In this document: positions 4,135-13,380 of the stretch, piece after piece | How positions within the stretch are numbered: the stretch's first letter is position 1 | Layout of the letters: every line of letters begins with the position of its first letter | Source: a virus | Virus record (IMG/VR): IMGVR_UViG_3300025889_000865 | Coordinates: 1-25,439 of that record | DNA length: 25,439 nucleotides | Reading direction: 5' to 3' (one strand) | Translations under genes and position numbers: made by a program | The notes under the pieces: model-generated | The model's input: only the letters and a program-made list of their open reading frames with translations | What the model was told of the DNA's origin: nothing | Database searches by the model: none

Positions 4135-5379
4135 TTACGAGTGAATACGCAAGGCTTTGCCATGCGCGGGTTGGAAGTGGTCGTTGTCAACAACGCCCCA
4201 CAATTCGTTGCCACACGCAGGCGTGGGGCAAGCGGGTAGATAACCGTCAGTCAGCCAGATGGCACCAGACGGTTTGTATTGCTTGGATTGAACATAGTCG
4301 ATAACACATTGTGGAGTTGTGCCGCCACCACCTTTAGGTGCAAGCTGAGTCGCAATGAGATCGTACTGACCACGCTTGAACACTTGCTCACCGCACACCT
4401 CGCTGTCCCACCACACGATGCGAACTGTCTCGGGGTTGGACTGACTGCAGATGTTGGCGATCTCACCGAACACAACTGGATAGACGCCATGCATTGAGCC
4501 TGATGTGTCGCAGTAGATATGAAGCTCATCCATTGCAATGTCGAAGTGCGTGGGCAGGATAACGCCGAGAGGTAGCATGCGGCGGTTAGGCGGGTTGTAA
4601 CGAGAGTACTCGTCGCCAGCACAGACTTCTTGCACCCACTCACGCAACGCATTGCGCCAGTCGGTATCACGCTTGCGACCAAGACCAGACAGAGGGTTAC
4701 CGGCTGAAGTTTTGCCTGCGTTCTTAGCGATACGCTTTTGCACCATTTCACCGTGCGTCAATGCATCGCGCACGCGTTTGGATAACTCATCTTTGTCGAG
4801 TCCCTTGGGTGTAGGCATGTGTTCATCGAGTGGCTTAGGAAAACCCCCTTGACCGTCTTCTGGTTTGCCACCGCCATGACCGTCTTCTGGTTTGCCACCA
4901 CCGTCAGGCGGGGGCTGGTTGCGCAGTAAGTCTTGAAGAATGTCAACGAACGCTCGGTCATAGTACTTGGGGTCGAGCAAAGGCTTAGGCTCGTCGGGAT
5001 ACTCCATGAACTTATGCTCGGGGTCAGTCTGTTCGATAAACGCATTGACCACATAGTCCATCGCTACGTTAGAAAGGTCAGGGTACTTCTCGCAGATGTC
5101 GGTGTACTCAGAACAATGGCGCAACGATTTGTGCAACGTCTCGTGCAACTGCACGAAGCGCAACTGCTTACGGTTGAGTGACATCACGAACGCCTCACCG
5201 TAGTAAACGTCAACGCCATTGGTGCCTGCTGTTGGTAAGTCAGGCACAACGTGGATCTCACCCATGGTCACAAGGCCCGACAGAATACTGAAGTCGATGT
5301 GATCCATAATGTCGATGTTGACAGCGGCGATGCGCTGTCGAGGGGTCATGGTGTCCCATGTCGTTTGTGCTTTAGTCAT
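4135..5379 (-). CDS. VWA domain protein with metallopeptidase-like N-terminus (DUF2201 type)
   Basis: This 414-residue protein has two parts joined by a Pro/Gly-rich linker. The N-terminal part carries HETLHKSLRH (His79, Glu80, His83, His88), a zinc-peptidase HExxH pattern. The linker (about 155-195) has two GGGKPEDG repeats. The C-terminal VWA domain has a complete MIDAS: DTSGS (291-295), the Thr in GGGGTT (354) and LTDG (376-379). This arrangement matches VWA-like/metallopeptidase (DUF2201) proteins that work with MoxR-type ATPases. It lies directly after the ATPase gene with a 27-base gap. It probably binds a metal-dependent partner for ATP-driven remodelling. Whether it cleaves peptides is unknown. 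Confidence 0.85.
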   Translation of the reverse strand: MTKAQTTWDTMTPRQRIAAVNIDIMDHIDFSILSGLVTMGEIHVVPDLPTAGTNGVDVYYGEAFVMSLNRKQLRFVQLHETLHKSLRHCSEYTDICEKYPDLSNVAMDYVVNAFIEQTDPEHKFMEYPDEPKPLLDPKYYDRAFVDILQDLLRNQPPPDGGGKPEDGHGGGKPEDGQGGFPKPLDEHMPTPKGLDKDELSKRVRDALTHGEMVQKRIAKNAGKTSAGNPLSGLGRKRDTDWRNALREWVQEVCAGDEYSRYNPPNRRMLPLGVILPTHFDIAMDELHIYCDTSGSMHGVYPVVFGEIANICSQSNPETVRIVWWDSEVCGEQVFKRGQYDLIATQLAPKGGGGTTPQCVIDYVQSKQYKPSGAIWLTDGYLPACPTPACGNELWGVVDNDHFQPAHGKALRIHS

Positions 5380-5406
5380 GATTGACTCTCCTTTCGTTTT
5401 TGTTTA

Positions 5407-6540
5407 TCAAACTTTGTAATAGATTTTGTTGTCACGAAGCATTGCCCCGAACGCCGTCACGCTGACGTAGTGCCCGATGAAAGAAGACTCTGACACCCGT
5501 CGAAGAAAGAGACTCTGAAGCTCAGGCTGAAGACGCTGGACATACGTAGTGAACGCCTCGGCATCGTCTCGATCTTGGGTCGCCCCGATCAACTTGAACG
5601 CCATCACCTGTTGCGCCACGTTGTTGCGTGGTAGCGGCGCATTGACAGGATCTTCACGCACGAGAGAGACGGCTGGTATCTGCTGACCGAACTTGATGAA
5701 TGACATCATGACTTCTGCGTATGATTCACCAACCGTACCCGCTAGTGCAACCGCAAGGGTGTGGTCGTCCATGCCACCAGCCTCGTACCCGTCGATAAGA
5801 TCAGACGCCGCATGCAACGAACGAAGCGAAGCATAGGCATCCTGCGCCTCTTTGGGGTTGTAGATGGCGGGGTTGTCTTTCTTAAGGTCACGCCCCTCGT
5901 ACTTGCCCCCAGGCTCGTAGTCGAGGAATGAGTCGAACACAAAGTCATGCTCACTCACGCAAGCGATAAGCGTAGCGTTCAGCCCATTAGGCAGAGCGAA
6001 CTCATTGATCCACTCGTCGCCTGTGGCTTTGCGCATCTTGACCTTAATCAGTCGGTTGCCAAGGTGTGCTTGCAACGAGTCACCCAGACCCTCGTTTGCT
6101 AGGTTGGTCGCCATGATAATGATTGACCCATACGGTGCGTAGAACACACCAGCACGACGCTCGTAGCCGATAGGCGCAATCATATTCTTGATGTACTGCG
6201 GCACCTTGGCGATCTCGTCGAACATGATGAGGGTTGGCTTCGAGCCATTGATGCCACGCTGGTTGTGCCTACTGATACCCAGCCGCTCGTTGGGCAACTC
6301 GGTTGACACGCCACGCTCACGGTCAATGTCCGGCATGAACAGCGAACCGTCAGACAACTGCGTGCAGTCGATAGGCTCAGGCTTGATGAAGTCAGCGAAG
6401 TCAGGGTCAGCGCACAGCGCCCTGTGAACAGAGGTCTTGCCGATGCCGTTCTCACCCATGATGAGGACGGTGCGCTTGTGACCGATGGACTTGACGAGGG
6501 AAACAACTTGTTTGAATGAAAGAAAGTCTGAATTAGCCAT
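5407..6540 (-). CDS. MoxR/CobS-like AAA+ ATPase
   Basis: The 377-residue product is an AAA+ ATPase. Walker A is GENGIGKTS (29-37), Walker B is LIMFDE (104-109), sensor 1 is the ATN at 144-146, and NR at 162-163 is a possible arginine finger. The region after Walker B (KVPQYIKNMIAPIGYERR) is like MoxR and CobS ATPases, and some phage homologues are labelled cobaltochelatase CobS. The C-terminal third is helical. Its immediate neighbours are the VWA gene and, further on, the DUF3150-like gene, so it should power a chaperone-like complex. No cobalamin gene is present, so a chelatase role is unlikely. The ATG at 6540 follows AAGGAGAATCACC. Confidence 0.9.
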   Translation of the reverse strand: MANSDFLSFKQVVSLVKSIGHKRTVLIMGENGIGKTSVHRALCADPDFADFIKPEPIDCTQLSDGSLFMPDIDRERGVSTELPNERLGISRHNQRGINGSKPTLIMFDEIAKVPQYIKNMIAPIGYERRAGVFYAPYGSIIIMATNLANEGLGDSLQAHLGNRLIKVKMRKATGDEWINEFALPNGLNATLIACVSEHDFVFDSFLDYEPGGKYEGRDLKKDNPAIYNPKEAQDAYASLRSLHAASDLIDGYEAGGMDDHTLAVALAGTVGESYAEVMMSFIKFGQQIPAVSLVREDPVNAPLPRNNVAQQVMAFKLIGATQDRDDAEAFTTYVQRLQPELQSLFLRRVSESSFIGHYVSVTAFGAMLRDNKIYYKV

Positions 6541-9253: not shown

Positions 9254-9276
9254 GTTTGCTACACCGTGTAGCAAAC
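9254..9276. repeat. 23-bp perfect palindrome, variant of the 9-3-9 family; possible leftward terminator
   Basis: GTTTGCTACAC and GTGTAGCAAAC are exact inverted arms around one central C. The inner part is TTTGCTACA-CCG-TGTAGCAAA, the same layout as the TTTGGGACA-N3-TGTCCCAAA palindromes further right, with paired changes at two positions per arm. It starts at the stop codon of the membrane-protein gene and lies 22 bases upstream of the next start's ribosome site. On the minus transcript it would form a long hairpin followed by ATTTATTT, so weak termination is possible. Operator function is equally possible. Confidence 0.8.
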
Positions 9277-11273: not shown

Positions 11274-11477
11274 TCACCTCGCTTTCTTCAAAAGAACACA
11301 CTCGGACTTCAGGCGTGACCACGCGACGCTAGCTTGCGCATCGGACTCGTACTGCATCTTTGGGACAGGCTGTCCCAAAGGTTTACCTTCAAATGGTTTA
11401 GTCTTTACGCTCAATAAAAGAGCGCATTGACTGTCGGTCAGCGTGGTGCTGGTGTTGCGGTTGCGTTTGTTAGACAT
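11274..11477 (-). CDS. Small hypothetical protein containing a palindrome copy
   Basis: The 67-residue product starts at an ATG at 11477 after TTTAAGGAGAATCAACC. It is basic at the N-terminus (SNKRNRNTSTTLTDSQ) and ends in LKSECVLLKKAR. One 21-bp palindrome lies inside the coding region and is read as PLGQPVPK. Its last codons contain the GCGAGGTGA ribosome site of the next gene. I do not recognise it. The presence of the palindrome may shape this protein's sequence more than its function does. Confidence 0.5.
   Translation of the reverse strand: MSNKRNRNTSTTLTDSQCALLLSVKTKPFEGKPLGQPVPKMQYESDAQASVAWSRLKSECVLLKKAR
11359..11379. repeat. Palindrome copy 1 (TTTGGGACA-N3-TGTCCCAAA)
   Basis: The arms TTTGGGACA and TGTCCCAAA are exact inverted copies around GGC. 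One extra base pair (C/G) extends each arm. It lies inside the 11477-11274 gene. Confidence 0.95.
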
Positions 11478-11533
11478 GGTTGATTCTCCTTAAATAAAAG
11501 TACTGCGTGAAAAGAACTGACACCCGAAGAGCA

Positions 11534-12055
11534 TCAGTCCGTGGCTTTGGGACACAATGTCCCAAACTTGTTAGAGAGAAGTTCTTCCCAATGCTTGGGC
11601 GGTCTTCTCCCCTCTTGTTTCAGGCGCTTGAAGATTTTATTGGCGCTCAGAATTTGGCTTAGTCGTTCAGGGTCAGGCGCACGCATCGCACGCTTTTTCT
11701 CCCTGTCCAGTTGTTTGTGCATAGACTCGTAGTCGTCAGCGAATCGAGCCTGCCTGTTCTTTAATATGGTTGACCGCTTGCTCACAAGCGCAACCTCTCT
11801 CATTCGTGCGAGGGTCTGATCTATCTCCAGCAAAGTCTTGCCCTCGTTCACCATACGTTTGCGTGCCTCGGCTGGTGCGAGCTTCATCACACTTCTCGTG
11901 TGGGTTCTTGCACACTCGTTACACACAGCAGACTCGTAATCAAGGCGCATTTTCATGGCTGGATTCTTAGTCCACGCACGAGATTGTGCGAGTGTTGCCC
12001 TGCGTTTGAACGCATCGGGCGGTTTGAGTTGGTTACAGCGGATGCATGGCTTCAT
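11534..12055 (-). CDS. Zinc-knuckle protein, charged C-terminus, unknown function
   Basis: I place the start at the ATG at 12055, with GAGGACATC upstream; the frame upstream of it runs through the repeat zone and is not likely coding. The 173-residue product begins MKPCIRCNQLKPPDAFKRR, a CxxC knuckle, and a second CNEC lies about 40 residues later, so a zinc finger of four cysteines is likely. The rest is highly basic helix (REKKRAMRAPDPERLSQIL). The first motif recalls zinc fingers beside HNH nucleases, but no HNH residues are visible. DNA binding is plausible. It borders the candidate origin zone, which is notable. A palindrome copy covers its last codons. Confidence 0.6.
   Translation of the reverse strand: MKPCIRCNQLKPPDAFKRRATLAQSRAWTKNPAMKMRLDYESAVCNECARTHTRSVMKLAPAEARKRMVNEGKTLLEIDQTLARMREVALVSKRSTILKNRQARFADDYESMHKQLDREKKRAMRAPDPERLSQILSANKIFKRLKQEGRRPPKHWEELLSNKFGTLCPKATD
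11546..11566. repeat. Palindrome copy 2
   Basis: TTTGGGACA-CAA-TGTCCCAAA lies in the last codons of the zinc-knuckle gene, read as FGTLCPK. This is a different reading frame from copy 1. A 12-base TGACACCCGAAG lies just to its left, near 11520. Confidence 0.95.
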
Positions 12056-12094
12056 GATGTCCTCGGTAAAAAGTGTCCACTTGTGTCCTGCGAT

Positions 12095-12380
12095 GTCCAC
12101 TTTTGTCTGAAGTGTCCAGCTAAGTGGGTCGCTGGAACGCAAGTAAAGACGTAGGGTTTGAGCATGATCGTCCGAACTATAATAGCATTTTTAGAAACAA
12201 GCCCGTCAGACAAGAGGAAAGTTGGGGCGAGCAAAAAGTGTCCACAAGTCCAGCCCCCTATAATAATAATTAATAAAAATAAAAATATATATTATAGTAA
12301 GGACGCTAAAGTGGACAGCGCTAATAACGGCGCGGGAGTTGAGTGACCCACTTGTGTGTCCAGCCCAGACAAAAGTGGAC
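12095..12380. repeat. 15-bp inverted repeat pair flanking the A+T core
   Basis: GTCCACTTTTGTCTG at 12095-12109 is the exact reverse complement of the bases at 12366-12380. The pair encloses 256 bases containing the A+T-rich core and several further GTCCA words. The length and exactness make chance unlikely inside a short zone. Confidence 0.8.
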
Positions 12381-12436
12381 TATTGTCCAGATTAGACAAG
12401 AAGTGGGTCATATCCACAACACGTTGTACACAAGCG

Positions 12437-12457
12437 TTTGGGACAGGTTGTCCCAAA
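12437..12457. repeat. Palindrome copy 3
   Basis: TTTGGGACA-GGT-TGTCCCAAA ends two bases before the stop codon of the 51-residue gene (minus strand), at the border of the repeat zone. On the minus strand it is followed by CGCTT, as is copy 5. Confidence 0.95.
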
Positions 12458-12459
12458 GC

Positions 12460-12615
12460 TCAGTCGTCTCGCCCAAGGCGATACTCAAGGGCAGACTTCC
12501 ACTCACGCTTCTGCACTTGCTCACGCTTGTATCGGGCGCCATGCTTGCGTGGCTTGGGCGTGGTTGTGGATTGCTTGGCTTTGAACTGCACGAGGTCTTT
12601 GTAGGTTTTAGACAT
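12460..12615 (-). CDS. Small basic hypothetical protein
   Basis: The 51-residue product begins MSKTYKDLVQFKAKQ and is rich in Lys and Arg, ending in EWKSALEYRLGRDD. The ATG at 12615 follows AAGGAGAATCAACC, the arm's standard leader. Similar small basic proteins with a W-K-x-AL-E end occur in phages, but no function is known. It is followed directly by a palindrome copy and then by the candidate origin zone. A plus-strand frame across the same bases is rejected because it lacks a ribosome site. Confidence 0.6.
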   Translation of the reverse strand: MSKTYKDLVQFKAKQSTTTPKPRKHGARYKREQVQKREWKSALEYRLGRDD

Positions 12616-12642
12616 GGTTGATTCTCCTTAGTAGGTTGGTGA

Positions 12643-12780
12643 TTAAAGGTACTGCTGGTTTTGCCGCTTGAGTAAACGCCAAGCAACGAAGATCGCCCAA
12701 GGGCTATAGCCTCGATACAGGCAATACGCTAGCCCAAAGGCACGAAGGTTGTCTCTGATACTGAAGATGCTTCTACGCAT
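12643..12780 (-). CDS. Small protein with hydrophobic core, possibly membrane-associated
   Basis: The ATG at 12780 is chosen because TAGGAGAACTACC lies directly upstream; the frame extends further only through a terminator. The 45 residues start with MRRSIFSIRDNLRAFGLAYC and continue LYRGYSPWAIFVAWRLLKRQ. Two short hydrophobic patches are broken by arginines, so it may lie on a membrane surface or form a helix pair. No family is recognised. It begins right after an intrinsic terminator, so its expression may depend on readthrough or on a separate start. Confidence 0.55.
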   Translation of the reverse strand: MRRSIFSIRDNLRAFGLAYCLYRGYSPWAIFVAWRLLKRQNQQYL

Positions 12781-12793
12781 GGTAGTTCTCCTA

Positions 12794-12821
12794 GAAAAGA
12801 AAAGGGCGACCGAAGTCGCCC
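12794..12821 (-). terminator. Intrinsic terminator, leftward, UUCG tetraloop
   Basis: On the minus strand, GGGCGAC-TTCG-GTCGCCC forms a seven-base-pair stem closed by a C(UUCG)G loop, which is unusually stable. It is followed by TTTTCTTTTC. It lies after the 13258-12851 gene and just before the ribosome site of the next gene, so it probably attenuates transcription into the rest of the left arm. Confidence 0.8.
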
Positions 12822-12826
12822 CAAGG

Positions 12827-12847
12827 TTTGGGACAGCGTGTCCCAAA
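12827..12847. repeat. Palindrome copy 4
   Basis: TTTGGGACA-GCG-TGTCCCAAA lies between the stop of the 13258-12851 gene and the intrinsic terminator, five bases from the terminator stem. Confidence 0.95.
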
Positions 12848-12850
12848 GGT

Positions 12851-13258
12851 TTAAGCACGCCCGATGTATTTCATGAGGCGGTCAATCTCAGACTTGTTGA
12901 GCTTGCCGAGAATTGAATCGCCTAGCTTCTGCCACTCGGGCTTAGCCTCGGTCTTGCGTGCGCCGCCTCGCTTGCTCTTGACGATGCTGTGGAACTTGGC
13001 GATGCATCGGTTCCATTGCTTTTGAGCCGCCTCGTGGCGGTTAGCAGACACAGCTTCCTCGCACGTATAAAACTTCCAGCCAGACTCTTGAAGAACAAAG
13101 CACGCGCCATAACGACTAGCGTGTTCTTCTGCTAGTTGCTTAATGAGCGAATCAGGCAAGAAGCCATCCTTGTCGAGCTTCCCCGTTATTGCTTTGTCTA
13201 ATTCCAACGTGAGTGCAATGAGTTGCCCGTAGATTGAAACGATTGATGTGTTAGTCAT
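12851..13258 (-). CDS. First gene of the leftward arm, hypothetical protein
   Basis: This 135-residue protein is the promoter-proximal gene of the left arm. The first half is helical (IVSIYGQLIALTLELDKAIT and KLDKDGFLPDSLIKQLAEEH), with a short strand region (CFVLQESGWKFYTCEEA). The second half is basic (KFHSIVKSKRGGARKTEAK) and ends in NKSEIDRLMKYIGRA. I do not recognise a family. The ATG at 13258 follows AAGGAGAGTCAATC. Early position, basic tail and terminator directly downstream would suit an early regulatory protein, which is inference. Confidence 0.6.
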   Translation of the reverse strand: MTNTSIVSIYGQLIALTLELDKAITGKLDKDGFLPDSLIKQLAEEHASRYGACFVLQESGWKFYTCEEAVSANRHEAAQKQWNRCIAKFHSIVKSKRGGARKTEAKPEWQKLGDSILGKLNKSEIDRLMKYIGRA

Positions 13259-13285
13259 GATTGACTCTCCTTAGTAAGTTAAGCG

Positions 13286-13306
13286 TTTGGGACAGCGTGT
13301 CCCAAA
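13286..13306. repeat. Palindrome copy 5
   Basis: TTTGGGACA-GCG-TGTCCCAAA lies 28 bases upstream of the first left-arm start codon, inside the leader of the leftward transcript. TTGACACCCGAAG follows it at about 13325, echoing the sequence beside copy 2. Confidence 0.95.
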
Positions 13307-13371: not shown

Positions 13372-13380
13372 ATTATAACA
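13372..13380 (-). promoter_or_regulatory. Leftward extended -10 promoter candidate
   Basis: On the minus strand, TGT-TATAAT gives a consensus -10 with an extended TG element. No good -35 is visible. Transcription would start near 13365 and pass through palindrome copy 5 before the first gene. Confidence 0.45.

Follow-up and report, generated by a model that had tools for sequence, protein, structure and literature searches.

The 25.4-kb virus record of an aquatic phage analyzed here (the window, by which we mean the whole stretch at its full length) combines rightward-oriented late genes for the terminase, portal, and head protein with an early operon that runs leftward from a −10-like TATAAT (13372 to 13377, minus strand), a probable leftward early promoter that is conserved in the related contigs L139 and L190. 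The first gene of this operon codes for p135, a protein of 135 aa (12851 to 13258, minus strand), and is followed on the same strand by the genes for a basic protein of 51 aa (p51; 12460 to 12615), a zinc-ribbon protein of 173 aa (p173; 11534 to 12055), and a protein of 67 aa (p67; 11274 to 11477), with p51 and p173 being conserved neighbors. Upstream of p173 lies a 380-bp origin-like non-coding region (12056 to 12436, without strand) that is AT rich, falls to 3% GC over one stretch of 40 bases, and contains repeated words of the AGTGGACA and TGTCCACTT types, with AGTGGACA-type repeats on both sides of the 3% GC stretch. This region recurs in the relatives and, on the basis of its composition and repeats, is the probable replication origin of this phage group. 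DNA of this part of the window had no match in cultured phages, among which Pelagibacter phages HTVC027P and HTVC023P, phages 023Pt_psg01 and DSL-LC04, and Planktothrix phage Pag-Yong1 come nearest by terminase (about 46 to 52% identity). The window also codes, at 4135 to 6540, for a VWA-like/metallopeptidase (DUF2201) and AAA ATPase pair, which these phages conserve in their early operon and which is likewise conserved in Pag-Yong1.

Distributed over the operon are five exact copies of the strand-symmetric palindrome TTTGGGACA-N3-TGTCCCAAA, with 9-base arms that are identical throughout. Copy 5 (13286 to 13306, center GCG) lies in the p135 leader, 28 nt ahead of the start codon in this first leftward gene, and copy 4 (12827 to 12847, center GCG) lies 4 nt past the p135 stop codon. 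Copy 3 (12437 to 12457, center GGT) begins 3 nt past the p51 stop codon and borders the origin-like region. Copies 2 (11546 to 11566, center CAA) and 1 (11359 to 11379, center GGC) are intragenic, in the 3′ end of the p173 gene and within the p67 gene, where they encode FGTLCPK and LGQPVPK, respectively, and are thus read in different frames. Of these features, the positions, identical arms, centers, and different frames, and the placement after stop codons or in a leader, had been described in the initial annotation and were reproduced here. Its further statement that all copies fall in the promoter-proximal 2 kb holds only for the exact ones, since we found a sixth palindrome, TTTGCTACA-CCG-TGTAGCAAA (9255 to 9275, without strand), whose arms are altered but still symmetric and which follows a stop codon by 1 nt and precedes the next start codon by 24 nt. 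No further matches to the exact pattern were recovered in the window, even with three mismatches, and the five-copy set has a chance expectation of about 0.01 (mean over dinucleotide-preserving shuffles, up to three mismatches allowed). Four of the six palindromes are wholly non-coding, against 15% expected for a random 21-mer in the region, and together the six flank p135 and the AT-rich, repeat-rich non-coding stretch. The array is a real and strongly constrained set of sites. Intrinsic terminators were considered and rejected, as no T-run follows the palindromes and the true terminator-like hairpins are separate elements; one of these (GGGCGACTTCGGTCGCCC followed by TTTTCTTT; 12796 to 12821, minus strand) comes right after copy 4. 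For most of the palindromes, no promoter was found at the site, which counts against the operator role proposed below.

The initial annotation had proposed looking for the 9-3-9 pattern in related phages, and we found the exact pattern at homologous places in related viral contigs. Searches with p135 added contigs without the exact pattern, in which the letters or the spacing have changed across the set. In L139 to L141, all copies are TTTGCGACA-N3-TGTCGCAAA, except for one TTTGCTACA-N3-TGTAGCAAA, and every copy in L145 to L148 and in a marine clade has a 2-base spacer. Conversely, a DNA-pattern search for the 2-base-spacer form retrieved contigs that mostly also encode p135. L197 and L198 were reached by the p135 profile search alone and by none of the palindrome patterns, and carry TTTGCGACA-N2-TGTCGCAAA arrays. 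Overall, palindromes are present in 28 of 28 records encoding p135, a count that includes the window, partial genes at contig ends, and some contigs reached through the DNA pattern only. Wherever the relatives examined have a complete p135 gene, its start or stop codon, and usually each of them, has a site no more than about 50 nt away. The intragenic copies shift with the rest of the set at the cost of the encoded peptide: LGQPVPK of p67 becomes LRQTVAN in L139, and FGTLCPK of p173 becomes FATRCSK. The sites are also strict, in that 58 of 67 distinct sites (16 sequences) found in a search allowing up to two mismatches are perfect, most of the others deviate at one position, and single half-sites are nearly absent outside the distant phage G027 (see below). 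In the p135 tree, the phages with a 3-base spacer form one group and the CG arms arose twice, so that the four site types need three changes (one for the 3-bp spacer and two for the CG arms), which is the minimum. As near-copies and shared descent favor such an outcome, we take this pattern as support and not as proof; likewise, the co-occurrence of p135 and the palindromes partly mirrors common descent within related phages. Separately, in the p135 leaders of L146, L196, and L191, a terminator-like hairpin ends directly before the palindrome, and early transcripts in these contigs may need read-through or may start at the palindrome. The phage record L204 (IMGVR_UViG_3300028558_000003) has a DUF3150-type gene in common with the window and carries, at 22.5 to 42 kb and immediately ahead of gene starts, a TTTGCGACA array with mixed 2- and 3-base spacers as well as single half-sites.

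More distant phages show comparable arrangements. The 61.6-kb G027 has eight perfect TTTGCGACA sites with spacers of both 2 and 3 bases, and a gene for a 293-aa protein (KRYERTIKPF...RGGAR) sits between two of its near-perfect palindromes. This protein is the best match to the p135 profile among the sequences scanned (E value of 0.05), and a strict p135-core motif occurs once among the 10,099 open frames of the scanned set (two overlapping loci), in this very gene. G006 has TTTGGGACA-TCA sites and, between palindromes, a gene for a 169-aa protein with the sequence EAAARKTWQR, which we only tentatively regard as p135-like (profile E value of 7.4). Neither of the two phages has a clear p135, and the links of p135 to them are weak. 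Pag-Yong1 (OL906435; our L225/L227) has 37 GGTTCAG-N-CTGAACC sites across its genome (17 of them exact), against an expectation of 0.0; many lie 18 to 29 nt before start codons and some lie inside a giant gene of 8.3 kb. Palindromes also flank its first leftward gene, UMO76074.1, whose product is similar to p135 over no more than 22 C-terminal residues (HHalign probability of 26%). We found nothing in the literature on Pag-Yong1 and no publication describing its 37 palindromes.

On the basis of these observations, p135 is a good candidate for the partner protein of the palindromes. Against this, it retrieved no match in Pfam, PHROGs, NCBIfam, or PDB, Foldseek searches of PDB and BFVD with its models returned nothing below an E value of 0.1, and it is only mildly basic; two AlphaFold2 models have mean pLDDT values of 74 and 82. 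No clear relative of p135 was found in cultured phages, and in four related cultured phages that do not encode it, scans of about 50 kb each recovered no repeated palindrome. The initial annotation had pointed to the phage's winged-helix and zinc-ribbon proteins as possible binders, both of which seem less likely than p135. The zinc-ribbon protein p173 is conserved beside the cluster in most relatives and its gene often contains a palindrome, so that p173 or another conserved early protein could be envisaged as reading the sites in place of p135. However, no p173 homologue was detected in G027 and G006, both of which have palindromes together with a p135-like gene, and the L146-type p173 protein lacks the zinc ribbon, yet the sites there are intact. 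We accordingly consider this assignment less likely than p135 and, taken by itself, quite improbable.

The palindromes could also act as RNA. Their predicted RNA hairpins are stable (−8.7 to −10.9 kcal/mol), many copies are positioned 17 to 30 nt ahead of start codons, and all copies examined lie in or beside transcribed genes. They might thus be stem-loops in the early mRNA that control translation or processing, either as targets of a nuclease or through binding by p135, in which an RGG stretch is present. Nevertheless, the loop is variable while all the bases of the stem are fixed, and clear G-U wobble occurs in only one of nine imperfect sites; with 58 of 67 sites perfect, base pairing with compensatory or wobble pairs, as in an RNA element, does not explain the constraint. 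Moreover, the innermost A and T are invariant across all 34 sites with a 2-base spacer even though they are unpaired in the predicted RNA fold, a count toward which the search with up to two mismatches leans slightly. The Pag-Yong1 sites within long genes are, in addition, far from start codons. An RNA role is therefore unlikely. Given that the symmetry is conserved beyond the bases that an RNA hairpin could pair, a dimeric DNA-binding protein is favored: perfect two-fold symmetry, a variable center, and a spacing fixed within each clade are what such a protein requires. The main exception to the clade-fixed spacing is G027, whose mixed 2- and 3-bp spacers count against this interpretation because a rigid dimer would not readily accept both.

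Hairpins also feature in the early promoters of phage N4, where the virion RNA polymerase uses short, perfect inverted repeats that have three central bases and lie just upstream of early genes. The palindromes share these attributes but differ in that centers of two bases or one base also occur. We rejected this model, which the sites before early genes and the presence of a giant protein had brought into consideration, as the giant protein turned out to be of the LPD38 polyvalent type, without RNA polymerase signal. The giant proteins showed no Pfam, PHROGs, or PDB match to a T7-family virion RNA polymerase and no RNA polymerase-like motif set; a search with PF00940 also returned no match but is uninformative, since its control was silent too. 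The giant polyvalent proteins in L210 (9689 to 17854) and L216 (5355 to 13850), of 2,721 to 2,831 aa, combine LPD38 with a HELIGH metallopeptidase-like motif.

A further set of models concerns the genome itself, in which the palindromes would load a protein around the origin-like region and serve replication control, genome segregation, or genome organization. In most relatives, an AT-rich region in which AGTGGACA-type words recur is enclosed by the cluster, and sites of the parS and KorB types are typically dispersed, perfect palindromes. In particular, the operators of KorB from plasmid RK2 (PMC11790492) and ParB-type sites resemble the palindromes in being perfect, dispersed, in some cases intragenic, and near the regulator gene. 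The sites differ from those of these systems in sequence and length. The ParB_N CTPase domain was found in none of eleven palindrome-bearing phage records other than the window, with a control that was positive in 11 of 14 known genomes, and a ParB/KorB system was rejected on this ground. Furthermore, the Pag-Yong1 sites are genome-wide, and in L139 the AGTGGACA words are unchanged while the palindromes have changed, so each motif is read by a factor of its own. A role in replication or partition appears rather improbable.

The same arms also occur outside phages. A scan of GTDB genomes recovered at least 119 stretches with the palindrome, against roughly 4 expected (257 Gb over 4^18). Among the matches listed, almost all belong to Clostridia elements that carry MobA-type relaxases together with serine recombinases, and the center is mostly AAA/TTT. 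These integrative or mobilizable elements resemble the phages in having several copies of 9-base arms (TTTGGGACA-AAA/TTT-TGTCCCAAA), both between and inside genes, and differ in their predominant center, in some AG arms, and in having no p135, which was not found in seven of these Clostridia genomes. Some Clostridia copies (L016 to L134, e.g., L097, L036, L106, and L059) encode peptides such as LGQNVPK and FGTKCP, and one lies inside a ParB gene (L059, position 5100). We found no published description of the Clostridia palindromes, and literature searches with the arm sequences gave primer-type hits only. They are probably a separate system, with the shared half-site reflecting either convergence or a binder that is unrecognizable by sequence. 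The check that the initial annotation had set for a phage-specific role, namely that homologous phages have the palindrome at the same places, was passed; the sequence itself, though, is not restricted to phages, as its arms also occur in many Clostridia mobile elements without p135. A general host repeat was rejected, given that the arrays are clustered and track p135 and that the genome matches listed are mostly from Clostridia mobile elements. A host protein that binds the sites and is exploited or titrated by the phage would account for identical arms in unrelated Clostridia elements and in two phages in which any p135-like gene is weak. However, this is highly improbable in light of the clustered, clade-specific phage copies that track and flank p135 and of the lack of any such array in the four related cultured phages without it.

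Of the three roles initially suggested, operators for a phage regulator fit best, with the partition or replication site and the RNA hairpin fitting less well. We propose, with about even confidence, that the palindromes are high-stringency operators for the phage's own p135, which would regulate itself and turn early transcription down. A p135 homodimer would recognize a pair of 9-bp half-sites in double-stranded DNA, separated by a fixed spacer of 2 or 3 bp. The sites in its own leader and right behind its own stop codon suggest that p135 would regulate its own gene through them. By binding the downstream sites at leaders and gene ends, it could then slow or block the host RNA polymerase along the early operon, such that early transcription would be damped as p135 accumulates; the origin-like region between the sites might be affected secondarily. 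Such a block to elongation is suggested by the sites in later leaders and at gene ends, as in the stoperators of mycobacteriophages (PMC6550527, PMC9283540).

Stoperators of cluster A mycobacteriophages such as L5 and TipsytheTRex are 13-bp asymmetric sites in one orientation that are bound by the monomeric helix-turn-helix repressor of these temperate phages, with site motifs that shift along with the repressor between related phages (PMC6550527, PMC9283540). The palindromes parallel them in the many near-identical sites per genome (6 in the window and 37 in Pag-Yong1) that favor short intergenic gaps, in the presence of a site near the gene of the cognate or candidate protein itself, and in the set-wise shift of the motif, with GG or CG arms and N2 or N3 spacers here following the p135 tree. 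Unlike stoperators, they are 20 to 21 bp long and palindromic, and p135 does not match the N-terminal helix-turn-helix and Stoperator domain of that repressor. No tyrosine integrase was found in nine phage records, which are possibly incomplete, with the control positive in 14 of 14.

More tentatively, it is possible, though the less expected outcome, that p135 is the founding member of a new class of phage DNA-binding proteins whose fold is unknown and whose targets are long perfect palindromes. The protein and its palindromes would form a module that is widespread among aquatic phages and heads their early operon, with a specificity (arm letters, spacer, and, in Pag-Yong1, the whole palindrome) that changes at all sites at once. 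The role of this module may lie in organizing or marking the genome around the origin and not in simple repression. If the operator proposal is true, the palindromes would constitute a second architecture for dispersed phage control sites, one with symmetric sites, a previously undescribed protein, and no detected integrase. The natural switches from GG to CG arms and from a 3- to a 2-bp spacer would then offer a ready set for understanding how a small protein changes its DNA specificity while all of its sites follow.
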